A stretch of 64,000 nucleotides of DNA from the NCBI RefSeq assembly GCF_028752835.1, contig NZ_CP087952.1, positions 310,001 to 374,000 on the forward strand, given 5' to 3'. Of this stretch, positions 11,554 to 56,666 are shown piece after piece (position 1 is the stretch's first letter; each line of letters begins with the position of its first letter). Under the pieces are notes generated by a model, which made no database searches, was not told where the DNA came from, and saw only the letters and a list, made by a program, of their open reading frames with translations. This stretch comes from Desulfosarcina sp. BuS5. Lineage in GTDB: Bacteria; Desulfobacterota; Desulfobacteria; Desulfobacterales; BuS5. The position numbers and the translations under genes were made by a program.

Positions 11554-11685
11554 CTATGGATTGTCACATAAATAATTTCACTGCGTTATCGGTCGTCGAA
11601 GTAGGGGTTCAGGATTTTGAACCCCTACCACCTCTGGCCTTGTGCCAAATTTTAAAATCAGGTTATTATCTGACAATCTATATAG
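11554..11685. repeat. Inverted-repeat element family, copy C
   Basis: Runs from ctatggattgtcacataaat to tgacaatctatatag with the central gtaggggttca and tgaacccctac hairpin arms and the conserved block cctctggccttgtgccaaat. It lies upstream of crcB and of rho, which diverge here. Confidence 0.85.
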
Positions 11686-19283: not shown

Positions 19284-19427
19284 TTTTTTATATGAATAAT
19301 TTCAACACATCATCGGTTGTCGAAGTAGGGGTTCAAGATTTTGAACCCCTACTCAAGATTTTGAACCCCTACTCCCTCTGGCCTTGTGCCAAATTTTAAA
19401 ATCAGGTAATTATCTAAAAATCTATAT
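19279..19427. repeat. Inverted-repeat element family, copy D (internal tandem duplication)
   Basis: Same family as the copy at 50242: tatag at the left end, gaataatttcaacacatcatc, the gtaggggttcaa hairpin, ctctggccttgtgccaaatt, and an end in aaatctatata. The hairpin's right half (tcaagattttgaacccctac) occurs twice in tandem. It sits between uppS and cdsA inside an operon and is therefore transcribed. Confidence 0.85.
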
Positions 19428-47239: not shown

Positions 47240-48892
47240 CTATCTATCTTCAGGCAGTATCATTCTATAAATTTTTTCCTGTTCATCCAGGATTTTCCTC
47301 AGAATCGTCATGTCCGTCAAAGGATTCATAAGCACACATCGGAAAACAACAATCTCTTCTTTATGGCTGTTTCCGATGAGCAGAGTCGTCCTTGATACAA
47401 AACTATTGCCGGCCTCCCTTTGAAGTATTTGAATTATCCGGGTAATCTCATTAAGCCGTTGGTTAATGGCCTTCCGCTGCTCATGATCTGCGTAATCAAG
47501 TTGCTGCTGTATACTTAATGGGCATATTCTGTAAGTTATTATGTTAAGTTGAGGTTCAGTGATCAACTGAAAGTCAGGCCGGTTTTTTATCTCTTGCGCA
47601 AATTTGACCGCTGTTTCTATGCTATGTTCAATAAGAAGAGCGTAACCTTGTGTACCCATTATCTTGAGCGCGCTGTCTAGTATTATGGAATTAGCTTCCC
47701 GTGATCCGGCAACCGATTTGATTCCCAGATCAACAGAGCCAGGCCGGTTTATGTAGTTTGAATGATAAGCGACTGCGTCCATGCGCGCCGGATCTTTAAA
47801 GTATACCATTCCGCATGTCATCGGCATATATAATTGTTTATGACCGTCTATTGTTATGGAGTCGGCAAGTTCAATGCCTTTTAGCAGGTGCCTGTATTTT
47901 TTAGACATAATTGTCGGGCCTCCCCATGCGGCATCAACGTGATAATGTATATTGTTCTCAGCGCAGATACTGCCAAGCTCTTTAAGGGGGTCTATGGTTC
48001 CGGTTTCGGTTGTGCCTGCAATGCCTACAATAGCCAGTATTTTGGTGTTTTTTTCATCTTTCTTGATATCCTTAATGATATTATTCAGACTATCGAGCTT
48101 TATTCTATTATGTTCATCCACATCTACAGGAATAACATTTTTGTTGCCTATCCCCAGCAGTCCTCCGGCTTTTCTGAGAGAAAGATGGCCCAGTCTGGAG
48201 ACCAGTACAACGCATCTTTCAATTCCGTAAGCATTGTACACAGCCAGGATGCCCTCACTTTCAACACCTTCAAACCCCTCTTTAGTGGGGGGAAGCAGGT
48301 TGTCTCTGGCGACCCACATAGCGGTAAGATTTGCCAGGGTGCCGTCCTCTACAAAACAGCCTAACGTTGTATGGGCATTCTGGATATTTTCATCATAAAA
48401 AGTATCCTCTTTTTGATAAAGCAGGCGGTGTATCTTTGCTATAACCTGTTTTTCAAGGACCGAAACAACCTTTGAAGTTTCAAGTTTAACCACATTTTGG
48501 TTAAGGGCGGTAACTATTGTTTTAAGATGTACCATGAAAAATGGTATGGCGGACGTCATATGGCCCACAAAATAGGGAGAAGCTATGTTGACTGCATGTG
48601 GTGCAATATTTTCAATAAGATCCGTTATAACATCATCCAGTTTTTTTTCGGGTTGTTCGCTCAGTATGGAACTTGTAAAATAATTTGCCATATCCTTCAG
48701 GCTGAACTTGCGGGTGACTCCCACATGTTGATTTAAAAAATCATGTAATCCGAAAAGAATAGGCCGCATATATTTTACTAAAGTATTTCTGGAAGTTTCA
48801 TTTTCCGGCCTTAGGAATACCCTTATAAGAGACGACCAGTCTGCTACTAATTTTTTTTTTTCTTTGTTTGGGCCTGTTTTTTTATTATGCAT
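47240..48892 (-). CDS. panP: PLP-dependent group II decarboxylase, PanP-like
   Basis: 550 residues. The PLP lysine is in TIDGHKQLYMPMTCGMVYF, preceded by YHVDAAWGGPTI. The length and these motifs match putative aspartate 1-decarboxylases of the PanP type, which make beta-alanine for coenzyme A. Other group II enzymes (glutamate or aromatic amino acid decarboxylases) are possible. A stretch of lysine codons starts the protein; the ATG at 48890 has no strong ribosome-binding site. Confidence 0.78.
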   Translation of the reverse strand: MHNKKTGPNKEKKKLVADWSSLIRVFLRPENETSRNTLVKYMRPILFGLHDFLNQHVGVTRKFSLKDMANYFTSSILSEQPEKKLDDVITDLIENIAPHAVNIASPYFVGHMTSAIPFFMVHLKTIVTALNQNVVKLETSKVVSVLEKQVIAKIHRLLYQKEDTFYDENIQNAHTTLGCFVEDGTLANLTAMWVARDNLLPPTKEGFEGVESEGILAVYNAYGIERCVVLVSRLGHLSLRKAGGLLGIGNKNVIPVDVDEHNRIKLDSLNNIIKDIKKDEKNTKILAIVGIAGTTETGTIDPLKELGSICAENNIHYHVDAAWGGPTIMSKKYRHLLKGIELADSITIDGHKQLYMPMTCGMVYFKDPARMDAVAYHSNYINRPGSVDLGIKSVAGSREANSIILDSALKIMGTQGYALLIEHSIETAVKFAQEIKNRPDFQLITEPQLNIITYRICPLSIQQQLDYADHEQRKAINQRLNEITRIIQILQREAGNSFVSRTTLLIGNSHKEEIVVFRCVLMNPLTDMTILRKILDEQEKIYRMILPEDR

Positions 48893-50241: not shown

Positions 50242-50370
50242 TATAGATTGTCACATAAATAATTTCAATGCGTTATCGGTCGTCGGAGTAGGGGTTCAAG
50301 ATTTTGAACCCCTACTCCCTCTGGCCTTGTGCCAAATTTTAAAATCAGGTTATTATCTGACAATCTATAG
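50242..50370. repeat. Inverted-repeat element family, copy E (best example)
   Basis: 129 bases with terminal inverted repeats tatagattgtca and tgacaatctata, and a perfect 12-bp-arm hairpin gtaggggttcaa ... ttgaacccctac in the left-centre. No coding capacity. It lies between the MFS gene and the selenoprotein gene. Confidence 0.9.
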
Positions 50371-50496
50371 TACATAATGTAATCTATGGTATCGTATAAT
50401 AAATCGCAATTTTTATTATTGAAAAAAAATTACCTATGGAATATTGATATCTAATCGGTTTTATTAATTCGCAATCAAAATTTGGAGGAATTTGTT

Positions 50497-50724
50497 ATGT
50501 CTGATAAAGTTTTAATCTTCGGCAAGAACGGTTGACCTTTCACCATAGCGGCTCGTGAAGCTTATGCAAAAAAAAATAAGGATTTGGAATATATTGATGT
50601 GCTCTCCGATCCTGATAAACTAAGCAGTATGATGAAATATTCCAATGGAATGCGTAAAGTGCCGATTATCGTTGAAGGAGATAAGGTCTCAATAGGCTTT
50701 AACGGAAGGTCATGAGGCGTATGA
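50497..50724 (+). CDS. Uxx-star glutaredoxin-like selenoprotein (two in-frame UGA)
   Basis: Reading UGA as selenocysteine (U) gives 75 residues: MSDKVLIFGKNG-U-PFT, a thioredoxin-like middle (LEYIDVLSDPDKL, VPIIVEGDKVSIGFNG), and a C-terminal RS-U-GV then stop (TGA at 50722). UGA codons are at 50533-50535 and 50713-50715, both in frame. U-x-x-T and U-x-x-stop match the Uxx-star family. Hairpins follow both: cttt-cac/gtgaag near 50537-50560, and gatcag/ctgatc at 50728-50746, placed like bacterial SECIS elements. GGAGG is 8 bases before the ATG. Standard gene calling would miss it. A redox role is inferred. Confidence 0.85.
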
Positions 50725-50727
50725 TAA

Positions 50728-50746
50728 GATCAGATGTATGCTGATC
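50728..50746 (+). promoter_or_regulatory. SECIS-like hairpin for the second UGA
   Basis: gatcag and ctgatc pair around the loop atgtatg, with flanking ta/ta pairs. The stem begins 12 bases after the UGA at 50713, a normal distance for a bacterial SECIS. It overlaps the stop of the gene by no bases and ends 22 bases before the next gene. Confidence 0.65.
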
Positions 50747-50768
50747 CTAAAAGTCTCAATATGAATTC

Positions 50769-51419
50769 ATGGAAAAACAATATCTGATTGATGATTTTAA
50801 AGCCGGCGAGGCCTGGCGTCTGTTCAGGATTATGGGGGAGTTTGTCGAGGGGGTTGAAGCTCTGCATGATCTTGGGCCGGCGGTCAGTATCTTCGGATCG
50901 GCAAGAACAGCCCCTGATAATCCTTTTTATAAAATGGCCGAAAAGATCGCAGCGCTTTTCGTTCAAAATGATTTTGCAGTAATAACCGGCGGCGGAGGAG
51001 GGATCATGGAGGCGGCCAACAAAGGAGCCTCTGAAGCAGGAGGGGTTTCCATAGGGATGAATATAATCCTTCCCTATGAGCAGGAACCAAATGTATATTC
51101 CAACAGAAAAATAGATTTCAACTATTTTTTTATACGCAAGGTGATGTTTGTTAAATATGCCACGGCATATATTATTTTGCCGGGCGGGTTTGGTACTCTG
51201 GATGAGCTTTTTGAGGCTGTCACCCTTATTCAAACCCGCCGCATACGACCTTTGCCCGTAATCCTGGTGGGCTCTGATTATTGGTCAGGCCTGCTGGAGT
51301 GGATTAAGGCCAGGTTAAAGGATGAAAAAAGGATATCACCGGCAGATCTGGAAATTATTCAGGTCATGGATGAACCTGAAGAAATCGTCAAAGCAGTGCG
51401 GAAAATCATTATAATTTAG
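50769..51419 (+). CDS. LOG-family protein (TIGR00730), phosphoribohydrolase-like
   Basis: 216 residues, Rossmann-type. The PGGxGTxxE motif is PGGFGTLDELFE, with ITGGGGGIMEAANKGA near residue 73. Lonely-Guy proteins remove ribose 5'-phosphate from (cytokinin) nucleotides; in bacteria many act on AMP or IMP-like nucleotides. The start at 50769 has no clear ribosome-binding site and lies 44 bases after the selenoprotein gene. The stop overlaps that of the convergent amidohydrolase by 11 bases. Confidence 0.85.
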   Translation: MEKQYLIDDFKAGEAWRLFRIMGEFVEGVEALHDLGPAVSIFGSARTAPDNPFYKMAEKIAALFVQNDFAVITGGGGGIMEAANKGASEAGGVSIGMNIILPYEQEPNVYSNRKIDFNYFFIRKVMFVKYATAYIILPGGFGTLDELFEAVTLIQTRRIRPLPVILVGSDYWSGLLEWIKARLKDEKRISPADLEIIQVMDEPEEIVKAVRKIIII

Positions 51420-56536: not shown

Positions 56537-56666
56537 ATATAGATGTTTTCATAAATAATTTCACTGCGTTATCGGTCGTCGGAGTAGGGGTTCAAGATTT
56601 TGAACCCCTACTCCCTCTGGCCTTGGGCCAAATTTTAAAATCGAGTAATTATCTGAAAATCTATAG
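56537..56666. repeat. Inverted-repeat element family, copy F
   Basis: tatagatgttttcataaata to ctgaaaatctatag, with the intact gtaggggttcaa hairpin and the ccctctggccttgggccaa block. It lies just beyond the CULT gene's stop (56671). Confidence 0.88.

Follow-up and report, generated by a model that had tools for sequence, protein, structure and literature searches.

The question raised by this locus is whether a frame of 75 codons crossed by two in-frame TGA codons is a gene, and which residue would be inserted at each of them. The window analysed here is the whole stretch of 64,000 nucleotides from Desulfosarcina sp. BuS5 (NZ_CP087952.1, positions 310,001 to 374,000), for which a first-pass annotation had proposed a hidden selenoprotein of the Uxx-star family, crossing TGA at 50533 and 50713 and ending as U-G-V-stop at 50722. 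The coordinates of this frame proved exact (Table 1). Translation with TGA as Sec gives MSDKVLIFGKNG-U-PFTIAAREAYAKKNKDLEYIDVLSDPDKLSSMMKYSNGMRKVPIIVEGDKVSIGFNGRS-U-GV, in which PFT follows U13 and NGRS precedes U73. The locus very probably encodes a working selenoprotein of UXX-star family 1, and both UGAs would be decoded as Sec via two hairpins.

Table 1. Features of the UXX-star locus and its neighbour (positions in the window)
Feature	Position	Strand	Evidence
Ribosome binding site GGAGGA	50484..50489	+	Read from sequence; 7 bases 5' of the start ATG at 50497
UXX-star family 1 selenoprotein (very probable), 75 residues	50497..50724	+	NF041114, 101.8 bits vs cut-off 72; 64-homologue alignment; predicted glutaredoxin fold, pLDDT 87.4
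UGA codon 13, predicted Sec at glutaredoxin active-site Cys position (U-P-F-T)	50533..50535	+	TGA in 83/91 loci, TGC/TGT in 8/91
SECIS 1 (putative): GGCU 50550-50553, loop CGUGA 50554-50558, AGCU 50559-50562	50550..50562	+	Synonymous covariation; weak as single fold
UGA codon 73, predicted C-terminal Sec	50713..50715	+	TGA in 91/91 loci
UGA best read as true stop, TAA directly after	50722..50724	+	Homologue terminators; 9 bases to SECIS 2 loop
SECIS 2 (putative): GAUCAG 50728-50733, loop AUGUAUG 50734-50740, CUGAUC 50741-50746	50728..50746	+	Fold z -2.3; covariation
LOG-family gene (TIGR00730 / Lysine_decarbox), second of conserved pair	50769..51419	+	TIGR00730, 153.9 bits, cut-off 96.35

The assignment to the Uxx-star family was upheld by the score over the curated cut-off of the NCBIfam model NF041114 ("UXX-star selenoprotein family 1"; 1.8e-29), and the cut-off of the parent model NF041212 was also passed. 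The frame read with TGA as U matched Pfam Glutaredoxin at 4e-10, and homologues carry TGA at both sites; the protein features that had been seen to continue across the UGAs are thus not due to chance. UXX-star families 2 and 3 and the HUGP/GUXX-star fusion (NF041211, NF047338 and NF045501) have a related domain, but here the product scored 57, 49.7 and 45 bits, under cut-offs of 100, 97 and 325, respectively. Besides the profile score, the product has the C-terminal U-x-x-stop of NF041114 members and Sec or Cys at the glutaredoxin active site. It shares U-P-F-T at residue 13, U-G-V-stop and two Sec residues with family 1, from which it differs in nothing essential, although the closing pair of its second SECIS is mismatched. 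The family has been described as 'distant Grx-like protein 1', with two Sec residues and a UxxT motif, in a 2026 review (PMC13188914). The description of the gene as hidden was therefore only partly right, because NCBI already curates a model of precisely this family, which the review covers too. The window gene is a well-supported new member of an already known selenoprotein family, to which the non-coding second SECIS, the Cys13 control, the invariant C-terminal Sec and the LOG linkage described below are additions for which no priority is claimed.

The fold of the product is predicted to be that of a glutaredoxin. AlphaFold gave a beta-alpha-beta-alpha-beta-beta glutaredoxin core in which the third helix is absent, and Foldseek on this predicted model returned glutaredoxins and NrdH. 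A profile built from 64 family members also retrieves glutaredoxins in the PDB. Glutaredoxin 3, NrdH and cGrx1 (PDB 3grx, 1h75 and 7c12) have the same fold and active-site position, which bears out the proposal that the first U stands at the redox Cys of a glutaredoxin-like protein. However, these proteins have sites of the CPxC or CPxS type and mostly a C-terminal helix, whereas the window protein has U-P-F-T and a short U-x-x tail. Mammalian thioredoxin reductase ends in a Gly-Cys-Sec-Gly tail. Both proteins thus carry Sec on a short C-terminal tail, but this is an analogy only, as the window protein has neither the FAD/NADPH domains nor the adjacent Cys.

UXX-star family 1 is widespread in the bacterial class and functionally orphan. 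A match was found in 244 of the 390 genomes of the class, and 171 of the 390 were over the family cut-off. No member was found in the nearest available genomes, which belong to the same genus or family and are 66-83% complete, and searches of plasmid and phage collections gave no match to the gene; viral contigs held only weak glutaredoxin-like stretches with 29-42% identity. Codons were compared in 91 loci, comprising the window and 90 others, among them one relative found by direct search of genome contigs (L024; its gene appears again as L057 and entered the count a single time, one duplicate being removed). Codon 73 is TGA in every locus. Codon 13 is TGA in 82 and TGC or TGT in eight of the 90 other loci, and the eight Cys13 genes (L027, L040, L055, L058, L075, L099, L112 and L114) all keep Sec73. 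Placed on the tree, the Cys13 genes imply about four changes, of which at least two are forced by well-supported branches. Of 87 homologues, 83 end in U-x-x-stop and the remaining four in U-x-x-x-stop. The sequences thus indicate that the C-terminal Sec, not the Sec at the glutaredoxin site, is the invariant residue, and the emphasis of the first-pass annotation on the first U, which alternates with Cys, was misplaced. That annotation had also named sense codons unrelated to Cys or Sec at both positions as evidence against a selenoprotein; the only alternative at codon 13 is Cys and there is none at codon 73.

Each UGA had been reported to be followed by a hairpin at SECIS distance. For codon 13, this holds by comparison only. 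The loop of SECIS 1 begins 18 bases past UGA13, a distance that is the same in most relatives' genes, but the stem has four base pairs, and shuffled sequences reach energies as good (z +0.8). The third bases of Ala19 and Glu21 covary (T-A 57, C-G 16, T-G 2, C-A 1, G-A 1; Fisher 2e-13, ignoring ancestry). These bases are free of protein constraint, and their covariation leaves the protein unchanged. Furthermore, 81 of 83 Sec13 genes keep the closing pair vs one of eight Cys13 genes (Fisher 3e-8, again ignoring ancestry), which provides a natural test: SECIS 1 decays where Sec13 has turned into Cys. Sequence comparison thereby supports SECIS 1 as a real element.

The hairpin after codon 73 both folds well alone and covaries in homologues. 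It lies entirely 3' of the stop codon; the fold of 50713-50765 reached -12.6 kcal/mol, and four of 200 shuffles were equally good. A possible outer stem is present in the window (50713-50718/50753-50758). In each of the 52 loci with a recognisable core, the hairpin begins past the stop, and stem pairs 4, 5 and 6 are paired in 96, 92 and 88% of these loci vs 87, 58 and 45% in shuffled sequences. None of 2000 shuffles gave covariation as high, although the shuffles leave ancestry uncorrected. Since SECIS 2 is outside the coding sequence, this covariation is no by-product of protein constraint. UGUAU and UGGAU are the most frequent loops, some 19 bases past the UGA, and the consensus is GGC-UGUAU-GCC. 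In the window an A.G mismatch replaces the usual closing C-G, and the loop G is therefore third rather than second. Published criteria for bSECIS elements are a loop of 3-9 nt, a distance of 16-37 nt, a stem of 4-16 bp, a G in the first two loop positions and an MFE of -7.5 or lower (PMC13188914). Set against these, SECIS 1 fits in its spacing, in its loop G and in its stem of 4 bp but does not reach the MFE, whereas SECIS 2 fits in spacing and stem, has its G third in a 7-nt loop, and fits the energy limit with the UGA included (53 nt; -12.6). In Rfam, no SECIS family was present at the locus at gathering or relaxed thresholds, the relaxed hits being chance matches.

In the proposed mechanism, SelB and Sec-tRNA-Sec would read UGA13 via the short hairpin within the coding region and UGA73 via the 3'-UTR hairpin. 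The product would be a glutaredoxin fold ending where the last helix would begin, and would carry a selenol at the active site as well as one close to the C terminus; U13 and U73 might form a reversible diselenide. A role in redox chemistry or in the handling of metal(loid)s is suggested by the fold, by the constancy of Sec73 and by the alternation of Sec and Cys at residue 13; the protein would act in thiol/selenol redox reactions or bind metal(loid)s. Sec73 is presumably indispensable, with residue 13 a partner that can be replaced by Cys. A main role in binding Hg, As or other metal(loid)s by Sec73, and not in redox catalysis, is possible but doubtful; it is compatible with the Sec reading, has been proposed for the family (PMC13188914) and agrees with an invariant Sec73 beside a variable residue 13. 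However, the glutaredoxin fold, the active-site Sec or Cys kept in every member and the cis-Pro (VP) motif (64-homologue alignment and structure comparison) speak against it, the neighbouring gene encodes a nucleotide-type enzyme, and no metal gene was present among the adjacent genes classified.

That neighbour, a LOG-family gene 44 bases past the UXX-star gene on the same strand, is a concrete partner candidate. A LOG gene follows the UXX-star gene in 40 loci including the window, with the strand always shared, and is the next gene in 19 of 29 loci having at least 700 bases downstream. Seven of the ten exceptions without a LOG gene belong to a short subgroup of about 70 residues. On gene order, this linkage appears to be the best pointer to UXX-star function, and the selenoprotein may work with the LOG-family enzyme encoded next door. 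More tentatively, the two could be a selenium-dependent two-gene module in which Sec73, inserted through the 3'-UTR SECIS, does the work and the glutaredoxin-site residue is only a partner. If this were true, an orphan selenoprotein family would gain a function linked to nucleotide chemistry.

Which residue is inserted depends on the decoding machinery. The first-pass annotation had recommended a check for selA, selB, selC and selD, and all were found, including a canonical selB and a tRNA-Sec with G73 and a UCA anticodon; the lack of SelB and tRNA-Sec, named there as counting against a selenoprotein, did not occur. The selD gene, too, carries a UGA in frame (...SGUASKL...). A second system for reading UGA is also present in this genome: immediately 5' of a second selB lies a SelC-like tRNA with a UCA anticodon, U73 followed by CCA, an acceptor stem of 8 bp and a T-stem in which an A is bulged. 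A selC* tRNA-Cys with SelB* has been described for delta-proteobacteria (PMC7609411), and the second tRNA and selB agree with it in U73, UCA, the T-stem A bulge and the adjacent selB. The selC*/selB* locus lies at G000:C1:1778129-1780191 (L005, L013; L115 5831-10192). Given this tRNA-Cys and second SelB, reading of the UGAs as Cys had to be considered, and Cys at codon 13 of relatives would agree with it. It is nevertheless improbable. An antisense, intron-like insertion of 2.27 kb with an RT gene splits SelB* near its C terminus, within the last winged-helix domain, and the remainder of SelB* is found on the far side. A SelB*-like protein is present in only 7-8 of 63 UXX-star genomes, vs full-length canonical SelB in at least 50 of 63, and the UGAs and hairpins persist in the genomes that lack SelB*. 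In addition, codon 73 is never Cys, which would be odd if Cys were enough. With SelB* interrupted and rare in UXX-star genomes, Sec is much the likelier residue, and we infer that Sec rather than Cys is inserted at both UGAs. A near-identical copy of the insertion (99.96%) interrupts a nearby FAD/ferredoxin oxidoreductase gene. An altered genetic code was rejected, as TGA terminates 10 of the 43 open reading frames of at least 200 residues in the window.

The TGA at 50722 is best read, from the homologous sequences, as an ordinary stop, because homologues carry TAA, TGA or TAG there (37, 35 and 15 of 87). This stop is 9 bases from the loop of SECIS 2, under the range of 16-37 (PMC13188914). 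UGA 50722 would end translation because it is too near SECIS 2, and spacing is probably what makes the last UGA a stop. Read as a third Sec codon, it would give U-G-V-U and then TAA, and the TAA directly after it means that read-through would add exactly one residue. This reading is highly improbable, since 52 of the 87 homologues have TAA or TAG at the site, the distance to the next in-frame stop varies from 0 to 498 codons where the site is TGA, and the SECIS 2 loop is so close. With 50722 taken as the stop, a Sec TGA (50713) and a stop TGA lie 9 bases apart, a point that the first-pass annotation did not raise. Each apparently serves its proper purpose, and this is relevant to the way in which SelB gauges distance.

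The alternatives that two nonsense mutations mark a decaying glutaredoxin pseudogene, or that the TGAs are sequencing errors, have only the stops themselves in their favour and are refuted by the homologues, in which both codons are TGA across dozens of genera, the hairpins covary and the frame is conserved, leaving them a negligible chance. The same comparison shows that the frame behaves as coding sequence, the two UGAs as recoded codons, the hairpins as predicted SECIS elements and the last UGA as a stop.

Several other features were observed in the window. A palindrome of 34 bases, GGAGTAGGGGTTCAA-NNNN-TTGAACCCCTACTCC, resembles a REP/MITE element. It occurs eight times without change in the genome, twice within the window, and diverged copies are present as well; its sites in the window are 50285-50318, 56581-56614, 19322-19375 and 11598-11631. 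On the minus strand, 31282-31326 matches the Rfam Acido-Lenti-1 RNA (39.6 bits vs a gathering score of 37) and folds better than shuffles. Also on the minus strand, 47240-48892 encodes the pyridoxal-dependent aspartate 1-decarboxylase PanP (TIGR03799, 626.8 bits, cut-off 606.1), the alternative to PanD in beta-alanine synthesis.
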